A DNA stretch of 64,000 bases from Actinoallomurus soli. GTDB taxonomy: Bacteria; Actinomycetota; Actinomycetes; Streptosporangiales; Streptosporangiaceae. Both the position numbers and the translations under genes were made by a program. The stretch covers positions 124,001 to 188,000 of the forward strand of contig NZ_JAMXMV010000002.1 in the NCBI RefSeq assembly GCF_024055715.1, given 5' to 3'. Position 1 is the first letter of the stretch. Each line of letters opens with the position of its first letter. The notes under the pieces were generated by a model that was given only the letters and a program-made list of their open reading frames with translations, searched no databases and was not told the origin of the DNA. Shown one piece after another: positions 34,309-41,727 of the stretch.

Positions 34309-35124
34309 TCAATCAATCAGGCTCGAATGTGTCAAAAGATACACAGTGAGCGGGGTGTAGTGATCCGGGAGCACGTTGTCGTCCAGGGGCACCACCGTAT
34401 GGACCTTCCCCTCCGCCTCCCCCGCGAACAGGGCCGGGTCATTACAGTCCGCGAAGCCGACCGTGTCGATACCCGCCTGGCCCGCCGCGCCGGCCCAACC
34501 ATGGTCCGCCATGACCAGATCCGGCCAGGGACCGCCGTCGGCGGAAACTTCTCGCAAAATCGCGCGCATGGGCTCCGCGTCGTGCGTATGGTGCAGCGCC
34601 GCGCCCCCGCTCAACGCCGCGACGCCCTCGATGTAGCGGATCACCCGGCGCTCCGCGCCGCGCGGCGTCTCCACCTCGTACGCCCAGCCGGACGCGGGCG
34701 TCAGCACCCGGCAGCCCCGCGCCCGCAGCGCCCGGCCCACCGCGAGGTACACCGGGAGCAGGCCGCCCGGATGCCCCGTGGCCAGCAGCACCGTCTCCCG
34801 CCGTTCCGCCGCCCGCGCGAGCCGGCCGGCCATGGCCTCCAGTGCGTCGATCGTGCGGTCCGGGTCGATCGTGTCGTCGCCGTACAGGTGCGCCGGGTCG
34901 GGGTTGATGCCGCATTTCTCGGCCATCAGCGCGAAGATCTGGTCGAACCCCCACTCCTGCTCCAGCTCGAGCCCGAACAGGTAGTACGGCTTGCGCGCCG
35001 CCATCCGCCGGTAGTGCAGGAGGTTGCCCTGGCGCGGCGTCGCGACCACCCCGGCGATCAGCGTACGGACCAGGTGCGCGCGCAGCTCGTCGCGCGTCGG
35101 GACCGGGTGATCGGCGAGGCTCAC
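34309..35124 (-). CDS. Conserved actinobacterial protein annotated as phosphatase-like
   Basis: A 271-residue soluble protein. I recognise it only as the family next to acuC-like genes in Streptomyces, often labelled phosphatase without proof. Visible features are a helical N-terminus (RDELRAHLVRTLIAGVVATP), VLLATGHPGGLLPVYLAVGR and DLVMADHGWAGAAGQAGIDT. It ends with a conserved acidic segment (FAGEAEGKVHTVVPLDDNVL). The GTG start overlaps the acuC stop (GTGA), so it is co-translated with the deacetylase. Confidence 0.75.
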   Translation of the reverse strand: MSLADHPVPTRDELRAHLVRTLIAGVVATPRQGNLLHYRRMAARKPYYLFGLELEQEWGFDQIFALMAEKCGINPDPAHLYGDDTIDPDRTIDALEAMAGRLARAAERRETVLLATGHPGGLLPVYLAVGRALRARGCRVLTPASGWAYEVETPRGAERRVIRYIEGVAALSGGAALHHTHDAEPMRAILREVSADGGPWPDLVMADHGWAGAAGQAGIDTVGFADCNDPALFAGEAEGKVHTVVPLDDNVLPDHYTPLTVYLLTHSSLID

Positions 35125-36278
35125 GGCATCGGGTCCAGACCGTGCTCCGGGAACACCGCCTGCCGCGTCGCCTGCACGGCCCGGTCCACCGGATCCGCCG
35201 GGTCGTAGCCGCTCTCCCACGTTCGCACCTCCGTGTCGGCTCCATCGGTCATGCGCTCGGGCGCCCGCCGCCCCGTACGGTCGCGTACGAGCTCCCGCCA
35301 GGACTCCGGGGTCGGCGTGCCGGGCGGGATCGGCCGCCCCGCCGCCTCGGCGAGCAGGTGGGTCCAGGCACGCGGGACCACGTGGACGAGCTCGTAGCCG
35401 CCTCCACCGGTCAGGACCCAGCGGCCGCCGGCCGTCTCGTGGGCCAGCCGGTGCAGCGCGGCGTACGCGGCGCGCTGCCCATCGACGCTCAGCGTCAGGT
35501 GGGCGAGGGGATCGAGCTCGTGGCTGTCGCAGCCCTGCTGGGTGACCAGGACCTGCGGCCGGAACTGCCGCAGGAGCGGCGGGACCACCGCGTCGAAGGC
35601 CCGCAGCCAGTGCCGGTCGCCGCTGCCGGGCGGCAGGGCGACGTTGACCGCCGTGCCCCGCGCCCCCGTCTCCTTGGGCAGCCCGGTGCCGGGGAACAGC
35701 GTCCGGGGCGTCTCGTGCAGGCTGATCGTGAGGACGCGCGGGTCGTCGTAGAACGCCGCCTGGACGCCGTCGCCGTGGTGCACGTCGACGTCGACGTACG
35801 CGACCCGCTCCGCGCCCTGGCCGAGCAGCCAGGCGATCGCGATCGCCGGGTCGTTGTAGACGCAGAACCCCGAGGCCGCCCCGTGCATGGCGTGGTGCAG
35901 TCCCCCGGCGATGTTGGCCGCGTGCTCCGCCTCGCCGGTCCACACGGCGCGCGCCGCGGCCACCGAGGCCCCGGCGACGAGCGCGGACGCGTCGTGCATG
36001 CCGGAGAAGACGGGGTTGTCGGCCAGGCCCAGGCCCCGCGCGACGTCGAGCCGCTCCCGGCGGACCGCCTCGATGTAGGCCGGGTCGTGGACGAGGGTCA
36101 GCAGCTCGTCGCCGGCCGGCTCGAATCCCTCGACGGACACGTGCGGCGCGTCGAACACGCCCAGCTCACGGGCGAGCGCCATCGTCAGCTCGACGCGGAC
36201 GGGGTTCATCGGATGCTCGGCGCCGAAGTCGTACGCCACCAGCCGGTCGTCCCAGAACACCTGAAACGAGGCACTCAC
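35121..36278 (-). CDS. AcuC-like acetoin utilisation/histone deacetylase family protein
   Basis: A 385-residue Zn-dependent deacetylase. Family marks are HPMNPVRVELTMALA, GGLHHAMHGAASGFCVYND (His dyad and Asn), DVDVHHGDGVQ (zinc Asp and His) and GGGGYELV. AcuC proteins deacetylate lysines, including acetyl-CoA synthetase. The start is set at GTG 36278 (SASFQVFWDDRL), with GGGAGG upstream; longer frames run into the neighbour's promoter. The gene downstream overlaps its stop. Confidence 0.92.
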   Translation of the reverse strand: MSASFQVFWDDRLVAYDFGAEHPMNPVRVELTMALARELGVFDAPHVSVEGFEPAGDELLTLVHDPAYIEAVRRERLDVARGLGLADNPVFSGMHDASALVAGASVAAARAVWTGEAEHAANIAGGLHHAMHGAASGFCVYNDPAIAIAWLLGQGAERVAYVDVDVHHGDGVQAAFYDDPRVLTISLHETPRTLFPGTGLPKETGARGTAVNVALPPGSGDRHWLRAFDAVVPPLLRQFRPQVLVTQQGCDSHELDPLAHLTLSVDGQRAAYAALHRLAHETAGGRWVLTGGGGYELVHVVPRAWTHLLAEAAGRPIPPGTPTPESWRELVRDRTGRRAPERMTDGADTEVRTWESGYDPADPVDRAVQATRQAVFPEHGLDPMP

Positions 36279-36327
36279 CGCTCGACCTCCCGACCGCGCC
36301 CAAAGCTCCCACGGGTCACCGTACCTG

Positions 36328-36333
36328 TACGCT
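36328..36333 (+). promoter_or_regulatory. -10 element for a leaderless DUF1272 mRNA
   Basis: TACGCT lies eight bases before the ATG at 36342, with no ribosome site in between, so transcription probably starts at the start codon. Confidence 0.5.
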
Positions 36334-36341
36334 GCACGGCC

Positions 36342-36515
36342 ATGGCGCTCGAGATGCGCGGCGCGTGCGAACGCTGCGACGCCCCCCTGGACCAGAACGG
36401 CCTCGCCTACATCTGCAGTTACGAGGACTCCTTCTGCGGGGCCTGCACCCGCTGGCTGTCCCACGTCTGCTCCGTGTGCGGCGGCGAGCTCGTCCGCCGC
36501 CCCACCCGCGTCTGA
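36342..36515 (+). CDS. DUF1272 cysteine-rich zinc-ribbon-like protein
   Basis: A 57-residue protein with seven cysteines arranged as CxxC (9,12), Cys25, CxxC (32,35) and CxxC (43,46), and the DUF1272 core CERCDAPLDQNGLAYICSYE. It probably binds zinc; no function is known. It is divergent from the acuC operon and has a -10 hexamer close to its ATG. Its length is normal for the family. Confidence 0.9.
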   Translation: MALEMRGACERCDAPLDQNGLAYICSYEDSFCGACTRWLSHVCSVCGGELVRRPTRV

Positions 36516-39600: not shown

Positions 39601-39662
39601 GGACGTCCTTCAGGCGGCGGGCAGCGGGCGACGGGCCGTAAGACGGACGTCCTTCAGGCGGC
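39601..39662. repeat. 18-bp direct repeat duplicating the trpS 3' end
   Basis: GGACGTCCTTCAGGCGGC occurs at 39601-39618 and 39645-39662, period 44. The second copy contains the last codons and near-stop region of trpS; the first is downstream of it. This looks like a small tandem duplication at the end of trpS. Confidence 0.7.
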
Positions 39663-40637
39663 CGTCAGTCCGATCGCGCGCTTCGCGGCGGCGAGCGTCG
39701 GCGCGGCCAGGGCGCGGGCCTGCTCGGCGCCGGTGCGCAGGACCGCCTCCAGGCCGGCCCGGTCGGCCGCGATGGCGGCGTACCGCTGCTGCAGCGGTTC
39801 GAGCAGCGCGATCACCGCGTCGGCGGTGTCCCGCTTCAGCGCGCCGTACGAGGAGTACGACAGCGCCTCGACCGGCGTGTCCGTGCACGCGGACAGGATG
39901 GCCAGCAGGTTGGACACGCCCGGCTTGGCCGCCGGGTCGTACGTCACCTCCGAGCCGGAGTCGGTGACCGCCCGCATGACCTTGCGGCGTACGACGTCGA
40001 CGGGGTCGAGCAGGTGGATCGTTCCCGGGGAGTCCACCGACTTGCTCATCTTCCGCGACGGGTCGGCCAGGTCCATGACCCGCGCCGCGGTCGCCGGCAG
40101 GACCGCGCGGGGCGGCGTGAACACCGGACCGTACGCACGGTTGAACCGGTCGGCCAGGTCACGGGCGAGTTCGAGGTGCTGGGACTGGTCCGCGCCGACC
40201 GGGACGTCGGTCGCCTGGTAGAGCAGGATGTCGGCGGCCATCAAGGCCGGGTAGGTGAGCAGCGACAGGCGCACGACCTCATGGCGCGCCGACTTCTCCT
40301 TGAACTGGATCATCCGCTGCATCTCGCCGTAGTGCGCGGTGCTCTCCAGCAGGTACGACAGCTCGGTGTGCGCGGCGACCGCGCTCTGCCGGAAGAACAC
40401 GCAGCGTTCCGGGTCGATGCCGGCCGCGACCGCGAGCCCGGCGAGCTCCAGCGCCCGGTCGTTCAGCAGCGCGGGATCGTGCGGGCTCGTGAGGGCGTGC
40501 AGGTCGGCGATCCCGTACACGTGGTCCGTGCGGGCGGCGTCGGCGGTCAGGCGCTGCGCGGACGGCCGCAACGCGCCGAGCAGGTTGCCGAGGGTCGGAC
40601 GGCCGGACGGAGTGAAGAGGCTGAGGACGCGGGCCAC
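39654..40637 (-). CDS. trpS: Tryptophan--tRNA ligase, attenuator-controlled
   Basis: A 327-residue class I synthetase charging tRNA-Trp. The HIGH-equivalent is RPTLGNLLGAL (TxGN is normal for TrpRS), and the KMSKS loop is SRKMSKSVDSPG. GTG 40637 has AAGGAG upstream. The gene corresponds by position and leader to the auxiliary TrpRS1 of Streptomyces coelicolor, which confers indolmycin resistance and is regulated by attenuation. A leader peptide with two Trp codons and alternative hairpins precede it, so low charged tRNA-Trp should raise expression. Confidence 0.93.
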   Translation of the reverse strand: MARVLSLFTPSGRPTLGNLLGALRPSAQRLTADAARTDHVYGIADLHALTSPHDPALLNDRALELAGLAVAAGIDPERCVFFRQSAVAAHTELSYLLESTAHYGEMQRMIQFKEKSARHEVVRLSLLTYPALMAADILLYQATDVPVGADQSQHLELARDLADRFNRAYGPVFTPPRAVLPATAARVMDLADPSRKMSKSVDSPGTIHLLDPVDVVRRKVMRAVTDSGSEVTYDPAAKPGVSNLLAILSACTDTPVEALSYSSYGALKRDTADAVIALLEPLQQRYAAIAADRAGLEAVLRTGAEQARALAAPTLAAAKRAIGLTAA

Positions 40638-40681
40638 GGTGACTCCTTGTGGACAGGGCCACCGCACCGGCGTCACGAGAA

Positions 40682-40750
40682 ACGGCCGCCGAGGCGGCGG
40701 CCGTCGAATGGGTACGCGAGGGAGGTCGGCCGCCGTCAGGCGGCCCACCA
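40682..40750 (-). promoter_or_regulatory. trpS ribosome-mediated transcription attenuator
   Basis: On the minus strand three pairings compete. Segment A (GGGCCGCC, 40746-40739), at the end of the leader reading frame, can pair with B (CGGCGGCCG, 40735-40727). B can instead pair with C (40704-40695), forming an antiterminator. C with D (40691-40682) makes a perfect 10-bp stem with a 3-base loop, followed by TTTCTC, as terminator. A ribosome stalled on the Trp codons (40750-40745) would free B to bind C. Confidence 0.8.
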
Positions 40751-40777
40751 GCTACTGCTGTGGAGCGATCCTCGCAT
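40736..40777 (-). CDS. trpS leader peptide with tandem Trp codons (13 aa)
   Basis: The short frame encodes MRGSLHSSSWWAA, with TGG TGG at codons 10-11 and TGA at 40736-40738. TACACT on the minus strand ends seven bases before the ATG, so the mRNA probably starts at the codon itself (leaderless). Its only evident purpose is to sense charged tRNA-Trp. Two adjacent Trp codons in a 13-codon frame just before a terminator are very unlikely by chance. Confidence 0.85.
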   Translation of the reverse strand: MRGSLHSSSWWAA

Positions 40778-40784
40778 GCCGATC

Positions 40785-40790
40785 AGTGTA
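40785..40790 (-). promoter_or_regulatory. -10 element of the trpS leader transcript
   Basis: TACACT (minus strand) lies seven bases before the leader ATG at 40777, consistent with transcription starting at the ATG. No clear -35 was found. Confidence 0.55.
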
Positions 40791-40827
40791 ACCCGGAAAC
40801 GTCGTACCCGGGTGTGACCATCGCGTC

Positions 40828-41727
40828 ATGGCAGAAACTGTCGCGCTCGCCGTGCGGGGGCCGTTCGACCTGGCGGCGAGCATCCGGTTCCTGGAGGGAT
40901 TCACGCCGGCGGGCCGGCCGGACGCCGGGCGGCACCGGGGCGCCCTCGCGCTCGCCTTCCCCGCCGCGCCGTCCTGGCGTCCCGTGGGCGTCCGGCTCCG
41001 GCAGGAGGGCAGCGCGGTCCGCGCCGAGATCGAGGCGCATCCCGACGACGTGGCGACGGCCGCCGAGCACGCCCGGCGGATCCTGTCGCTGGACGTCGAC
41101 GGCACCGGTTTCGCCGCGCTCGACGACCCGCACGTCGTACGGCTCCGGGAGCGGTTCCCGGGGCTGCGGCCGGTGCTGTTCCACTCGCCGTACGAGGCGG
41201 CCTGCTGGTCCGTGATCGGGCATCGCATCCGGATCGCCCAGGCCGCCGGCATCAAGCAGCGCATGGCCGAGCGTCTCGGCGACGCCGTCGGCGGGGTGGC
41301 GAGTTTCCCCGGCCCGGAGCGGCTGCTGGCCGTCACCGACGTGCCGGGGCTGCCGCCGGTCAAGATCGATCGCCTGCACGGCATCGCCCGCGCCGCCCTG
41401 AACGGCGACCTGGACGCCGGTCGGCTGCGGGCGATGGAGACCGCGCAGGCGCTCGTCGAGCTGCAGCGGATCCCCGGCATCGGGCTGTTCTCCGCGGAGC
41501 TGATCCTCATCCGGGGCGCGGGGCACCCCGACGTCTTCCCCGCCTCCGAGCGACGGCTGCACGACGAGATGGCCCACGAGTACGGCCTGCACGGCCCCAG
41601 CCCGGCACGCCTCGCGGCGATCGCCGAGGCCTGGCGGCCCTACCGGTCGTGGGTCGGGCTGCTGCTGCGCGCCCGGCGCGAGATCGAGACCGCCGAGATC
41701 GCCCGCGGCCGCCGCGTCACCCGCTGA
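40828..41727 (+). CDS. DNA-3-methyladenine glycosylase 2 family (AlkA-like) protein
   Basis: A 299-residue HhH-GPD base-excision enzyme. The helix-hairpin-helix reads LQRIPGIGLFSAELILIRGA and the catalytic Asp follows in GHPDVFP. The N-terminal 100 residues form the beta-rich AlkA domain. It removes alkylated bases from DNA. The ATG at 40828 lies only 50 bases from the divergent trpS leader start, so promoters overlap. Its size and motifs are normal. Confidence 0.88.
   Translation: MAETVALAVRGPFDLAASIRFLEGFTPAGRPDAGRHRGALALAFPAAPSWRPVGVRLRQEGSAVRAEIEAHPDDVATAAEHARRILSLDVDGTGFAALDDPHVVRLRERFPGLRPVLFHSPYEAACWSVIGHRIRIAQAAGIKQRMAERLGDAVGGVASFPGPERLLAVTDVPGLPPVKIDRLHGIARAALNGDLDAGRLRAMETAQALVELQRIPGIGLFSAELILIRGAGHPDVFPASERRLHDEMAHEYGLHGPSPARLAAIAEAWRPYRSWVGLLLRARREIETAEIARGRRVTR

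Follow-up and report, generated by a model that had tools for sequence, protein, structure and literature searches.

A predicted leaderless tryptophan attenuator before an auxiliary trpS gene of Actinoallomurus soli and its counterparts before trpE and TrpRS-II-type genes

The auxiliary tryptophanyl-tRNA synthetase (TrpRS) gene of Streptomyces coelicolor is reportedly controlled by an attenuator, described by Vecchione and Sello in 2010. In the trp leader of Escherichia coli, alternative 1:2, 2:3, and 3:4 pairing governs a biosynthetic operon, and the leader has a Shine-Dalgarno (SD) sequence. The locus described here shares the logic of alternative pairing but differs from E. coli in both the SD sequence and the biosynthetic target. 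Mycobacteria are said to use leaderless polycysteine short open reading frames (ORFs) as amino acid-responsive attenuators, a result attributed to Canestrari et al. in 2020; these resemble our leader, itself a presumed leaderless short-ORF attenuator, but the amino acid is cysteine rather than tryptophan. In Streptomyces lividans TK24, the passages on trpL2 describe a leader encoding MMTRTCTQLWRAA and a stop codon that is leaderless by transcriptome sequencing (RNA-seq) and has two hairpins and no U-rich tail, and they describe the trpE leader as leaderless as well (PMC8079986). The A. soli leader, which we presume to be leaderless, is likewise 13 amino acids long with trpS downstream; trpL2 has a single Trp codon and then Arg, as given in the same passages, whereas the A. 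soli leader has two Trp codons (PMC8079986). Seliverstov et al. (2005) predicted a classical attenuator before trpS2 of Streptomyces avermitilis; this is a prediction, and the word "leaderless" is absent from their text (PMC1262725). Leaderless Trp attenuators before trpS are already known, as trpL2 illustrates, and ours is very probably a new member in another genus. We add three findings to this. A covarying helix, P1, joins the 5' end to the stretch after pairing arm B; this architecture recurs in front of trpE in the A. soli genome; and a synthetase of the TrpRS-II type is also preceded by presumed leaderless Trp leaders.

The locus lies in a window of 64 kb, by which we mean the whole stretch of A. 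soli DNA that was analyzed. Its features, all on the minus strand and in window coordinates, are as follows.

40785 to 40790, minus strand: -10 promoter element TACACT, read from the sequence, 7 nt upstream of the leader ATG (40777)
40736 to 40777, minus strand: putative leaderless leader ORF encoding MRGSLHSSSWWAA, 13 codons plus stop
40770 to 40777, minus strand: P1 5' arm, ATGCGAGG, with the start codon inside the arm
40745 to 40750, minus strand: TGG TGG control codons, read from the sequence and from WW/WR conservation among 156 loci
40739 to 40749, minus strand: arm A, overlapping the WWAA codons; a Trp-stalled ribosome is expected to mask it
40724 to 40734, minus strand: arm B, partner of A or C, beginning at W1+16
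40714 to 40721, minus strand: P1 3' arm, CCTCGCGT, from folding and comparison
40695 to 40705, minus strand: arm C, partner of B (antiterminator) or D (terminator)
40681 to 40691, minus strand: arm D, downstream half of the terminator hairpin
40675 to 40682, minus strand: weak U-rich tail TTTCTCGT, read from the sequence
40643 to 40648, minus strand: SD sequence AAGGAG of trpS, read from the sequence
39654 to 40637, minus strand: auxiliary trpS, 327 amino acids, GTG start, TIGR00233 at 289.7 bits

The leader ORF (40777 to 40736) reads ATGCGAGGATCGCTCCACAGCAGTAGCTGGTGGGCCGCCTGA. The initial annotation had described a TACACT element and a 13-codon frame with TGG TGG, followed by three mutually exclusive hairpins of which the last is a terminator. 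Element and frame are both present, 7 nt apart on the minus strand, and all three hairpins can form: A:B at 40749-40724 (-23.0 kcal/mol), B:C at 40734-40695 (duplex, -22.0 kcal/mol; fold, -19.0), and C:D at 40705-40681 (-21.8 to -22.1 kcal/mol). Two points are weaker than annotated: the U-tract behind the strong C:D hairpin, TTTCTCGT, is poor, and a simple scan identified no sigma-70-type promoter with a -35 element. The 97-nt leader as a whole folds with a z score of -5.8 against 200 shuffles. That account did not include P1, the pairing ATGCGAGG:CCTCGCGT, which encloses A:B and pairs the whole ATG. The pattern TAnnnT-N6/7-[AG]TG opening a short ORF with WW (TGG TGG) or WR (TGG and an Arg codon) occurs once on the two strands of the window. 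In a 141-nt fold of the window alone, the trpS SD sequence is partly paired in a separate small hairpin (40640-40665, minus strand). A T-box or other known RNA family was considered and rejected: the sole Rfam match up to E = 1 within 40500-41000 is isrD at 19 bits (threshold, 37), and the loci L001, L183, and L239 have no Rfam match at gathering score.

We gathered 171 trpS loci, 156 of them of the window's TrpRS type and 15 others. A leader with WW (125 loci) or WR (31 loci) precedes trpS in all 156 and in none of the 15, a set that consists of 8 genus housekeeping copies and of L154-L160, which fall short of the cut at E <= 1e-88 and were assigned to it after scans had already found them without a leader. 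The 156 loci include duplicates and yield 144 distinct leaders. Among these, TAnnnT lies 6 nt from the start in 31, 7 nt in 102, and 8 nt in 2 (6 or 7 nt in 133/144) and at any other distance within 0 to 39 nt in just 2; these counts are partly by construction because the leader finder favors starts with a -10 element at 6 to 8 nt, and a separate scan permitting 4 to 9 nt again gave 6 to 8 nt. An SD-like 5-mer occurs at -16 to -4 of the leader start in 0/144 leaders and within 45 nt upstream of the trpS match in 123/144. The -10 boxes of L119, L128, L134, L162, L164, L166 (f26), and L167 (f47) are without the first T (CATGAT, CACACT, GACCAT, CAAGAT). This comparison gives strong support to ribosome-mediated attenuation with a leaderless leader, in the contrast of 156/156 with 0/15 loci, the spacing, the lack of an SD sequence, and the placement of arm B. 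The TGG TGG pair is present in the window as described but is not essential: four of the eight genus leaders have WW, and the other four, in which an Arg codon comes after TGG, were missed by a WW-only search, so WW was dropped as a defining feature.

In 125 of the 144 leaders, the distance from the first base of the initial Trp codon (W1) to the start of arm B is 16 nt, and in all of them it is 14 to 19 nt. Three codons separate W1 from the stop in 130 of the 156 loci. A ribosome with W1 in its A site covers the message to about W1+12; with B starting near W1+16, arm A would be masked and arm B free. For the window leader, arm B ends 14 nt past the stop codon's first base, and most of B would therefore be expected to lie under a ribosome that has reached the stop; the leader ORF ends beyond B in 19/144 leaders, as in Streptosporangium-type leaders. 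By computed energies, A:B, B:C, and C:D are formable in 144/144 leaders, with medians of -19.2, -22.0, and -21.7 kcal/mol, against -23.0, -22.0, and -22.1 for the window leader in the same comparison. The median for B:C drops from -22.0 to -12.1 kcal/mol when C is shuffled (144 leaders). We judged B:C by energies because its pairing register shifts by one base between clades; counting in fixed columns finds no B:C covariation, with 66.7% of cells paired versus 74.5% when slid by one. The parts of the attenuator, their geometry, and their conservation are seen in the sequences themselves.

Together, these features make it very probable that a transcription attenuator sensing tRNA-Trp charging controls the auxiliary TrpRS gene. 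RNA polymerase would start at or beside the ATG, and a ribosome would load straight onto the 5' end without an SD site. When Trp-tRNA is plentiful, the ribosome would translate both TGG codons, reach the stop, and cover A and most of B, leaving C to pair with D and transcription to end. When Trp-tRNA is scarce, through Trp starvation or inhibition of the housekeeping TrpRS, the ribosome would stall on the Trp codons and mask A but not B; pairing of B with C would then leave D single, trpS would be transcribed, and charging would be restored. Without a loaded ribosome, P1 and A:B would form and leave C:D intact, making the default state off. Transcript start, leader translation, termination, and Trp response in this scheme are what the arrangement of the sequence leads us to expect.

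The output of a leader that senses Trp-tRNA could instead lie mainly in Rho-dependent termination or in control of trpS translation, with little intrinsic termination at C:D. We consider this improbable, although the weak U-tract of the window, the low count of 1 to 3 T in 32/144 distinct leaders over the 9 nt that begin with D's final base, the S. lividans passages that report no U-rich sequence (PMC8079986), and the small hairpin that holds part of the trpS SD sequence all lean toward it. They are opposed by the constancy of C:D, which of all elements varies least (98.3% of its cells are paired in A2, an alignment of 24 sequences in which row L146 lacks its 5' end), and by the position of the trpS SD sequence about 33 nt beyond arm D. 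Far less credible still is an untranslated leader in which an ordinary promoter precedes a structured 5' untranslated region or a terminator and the WW frame is there by coincidence. The scan that found no -35 element leans toward it. Against it, 144 distinct leaders retain a WW/WR frame close behind the -10 element and a constant distance to B, and the TAnnnT-N6/7-[AG]TG WW/WR pattern arose in none of 20 first-order Markov simulations of the window.

The gene behind the leader had been proposed to be an auxiliary synthetase. A search of the window's genome (9.42 Mb, 60 contigs) found a second trpS, 46% identical to the first, and one trpS of each type is present in 8/8 genomes of the genus searched. 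In a 53-protein tree, from which three mis-extracted proteins (L083, L096, and L034) were omitted, the window's TrpRS groups with auxiliary actinomycete enzymes in a clade of 23 proteins, 2 of them from Streptomyces, apart from the housekeeping copies (split support, 0.96). The likeness to the Streptomyces gene neighborhood is also supported. The window contains a histone-deacetylase-family gene (35121-36464; PF00850, without an NCBIfam match), which we take to be acuC, and homologs of it and of proC (TIGR00112) lie near trpS in all five Streptomyces loci with long flanks and at L017 but at none of the 16 other loci tested. The Streptomyces sets behind the clade and the neighborhood comparison are without S. 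coelicolor; they support the view that the window's trpS locus is one shared with Streptomyces, found here in another genus. In Streptomyces scabiei, an rRNA operon lies directly upstream of the auxiliary trpS (L034:4010-9176), and such an operon may be why many Streptomyces contigs end a few hundred bases before trpS. In one genus (g55), two window-type TrpRS genes (L343 and L345) lie in neighborhoods that share only about 1 kb, suggesting that gene and attenuator may travel together.

The window's TrpRS may also be resistant to indolmycin. SGR_3809 of Streptomyces griseus encodes an indolmycin-resistant auxiliary TrpRS, according to the relevant section of a review (PMC6804068), and His43 of Bacillus stearothermophilus TrpRS is implicated in indolmycin sensitivity in the passages concerned (PMC4899734). 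This His is retained at the aligned residue of the window's enzyme. At position 9, the window's enzyme has Thr where B. stearothermophilus TrpRS has Gln. Among the 147 readable loci of the type (9 further loci were unread), 137 have Lys or Thr there, 7 have Gln, and 3 have Val or Ala; the housekeeping TrpRS copies of the genus have Gln, as their N termini were read.

A covariance model (R1) built from alignment A2 recovers the trpS leader in 8/8 genus genomes at 64 to 86 bits; the initial annotation had made a lack of the hairpins among close relatives a reason to abandon its reading, and the leader is present in every one. In seven of the eight, R1 finds a second, weaker site (31.6 to 41 bits; E values of 0.0016 to 0.079), while four further matches below 30 bits in the genus are without such a leader. 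The second site in the window's genome is as follows.

Contig C18, 13366 to 13466, plus strand: second presumed leaderless Trp attenuator, encoding MRTQSTQWWWRR and a stop codon (L183), found with R1

The gene after it encodes anthranilate synthase component I (PRK13566, 798 bits against a cutoff of 645; Chorismate_bind). Across the family, 62/341 genomes have an R1 match at E <= 0.001; the search is nonexhaustive, matching 25 of the 42 family genomes with the window's type (type 1) and missing mainly Streptosporangium-type leaders, and the downstream gene was inspected for part of the matches. Among the extra matches inspected, 29 loci precede a trpE-like gene, as judged by N-terminal sequence (by a family test for L183 only), and another TrpRS lies downstream in 8 genomes. 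One match (G058:C216, L201/L237; 68.7 bits), with the leader VRMSHGYCGWRRP, has no clean long trpS frame directly downstream. The closest solved structures to the other TrpRS are TrpRS II 2a4m (241 bits) and 1yi8, the next scoring 189; both are presumably from Deinococcus radiodurans. This TrpRS-II type is 29 to 39% identical to the window's type, and a split with a support of 1.0 in the 53-protein tree sets it apart from both that type and the housekeeping copies. Leaderless Trp leaders precede it at 30/30 loci in one genus (L239-L268), at 37/39 loci by the strict pattern (L270-L308; 35 of the 39 from other genera), and, with a slightly looser -10 element, at 24/30 loci of a class-wide sample (L309-L338) that includes some loci of the earlier sets. 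The remaining 6 of these 30 have no Trp-containing ORF of 6 to 28 codons in the stretch searched, and the leader is therefore not universal for the TrpRS-II type. A search of titles, abstracts, and selected passages found no paper whose title or abstract describes P1 or leaders of TrpRS-II-type genes.

P1 can be compared across these three groups. Its pairing averages -15.7 kcal/mol in the 144 type 1 leaders against -9.9 when the 3' partner is swapped between clades; a different choice of swap partners gives native and swapped means of -15.7 and -12.0 for type 1 (n = 144), -16.6 and -12.5 for TrpRS-II-type leaders (n = 65), and -14.1 and -9.8 for trpE leaders (n = 26). Leaders were obtained at 66/67 type II and 27/27 trpE loci entered into the comparison, with L281 and L294 (type II) and L229 and L232 (trpE) left out beforehand. 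The excess is absent from group f26, 10 leaders labeled by peptide start (-9.25 versus -8.96). In A2, compensatory changes occur at 6 of 10 P1 pairs. Covariation of the whole structure is 0.258 versus 0.130 when shuffled, with 0/500 shuffles attaining the native score, and sliding gives no more than 0.090; two of the five covariation measures are only mildly above shuffles (both-side-changed pairs, 12 versus 10.2; further pair types, 30 versus 26.6). All these counts ignore relatedness. The comparison does not support the idea that P1 sequesters the start codon at every locus: the UG of that codon is paired in 60/144 type 1, 21/65 type II, and 21/26 trpE leaders, against fractions of 0.29, 0.29, and 0.35 with swapped partners, and just the trpE group clearly exceeds the swapped level. 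P1 may serve as a default-off gate.

The two spare synthetases seldom share a genome. At cutoffs of E <= 1e-88 for the window's type and E <= 1e-70 for the TrpRS-II type, 42 of the 341 family genomes have the former, 170 the latter, and 1 both (one-sided Fisher test, 8e-13; the test ignores shared descent). Three genera contain both types, and their genomes with type 1, type II, and both number 2, 51, and 0 of 54; 5, 56, and 0 of 65; and 12, 5, and 1 of 16, where genus sizes assume consecutive genome handles. A class sample of 394 genomes has 46 with the window's type, 45 with the TrpRS-II type, and 1 with both (G665). We also considered an in-place swap of the types by comparing stretches of 18 to 19.5 kb that surround eight loci from two genera, four of type 1 and four of type II; none of the 16 between-type pairs shares a blastn match (E <= 1e-20). 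The types thus sit at unrelated sites in these eight loci, which rejects replacement in place there.

We regard the attenuator as genuine and well conserved, and the wider pattern, comprising P1, the two TrpRS lineages, and their near-exclusive distribution, as the part worth specialist attention. For that pattern we offer a tentative reading, which we hold at slightly less than even confidence: an actinobacterial family of leaderless Trp attenuators in which a covarying P1 would lock the 5' end, ribosomes could load only during the first ~60 nt, and control would therefore be strictly off by default, the whole forming a portable module before trpE, TrpRS1-type, and TrpRS-II-type genes whose synthetases would substitute for each other across genomes. 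Such leaders offer a system for asking how a ribosome loads on a leaderless 5' end that is soon folded away. The linkage of two separate TrpRS lineages by one kind of control, with their near-exclusive distribution, points to exchangeable back-up or resistance enzymes. Our results indicate that an inducible back-up TrpRS under leaderless attenuation is a general actinomycete design and not a Streptomyces peculiarity.
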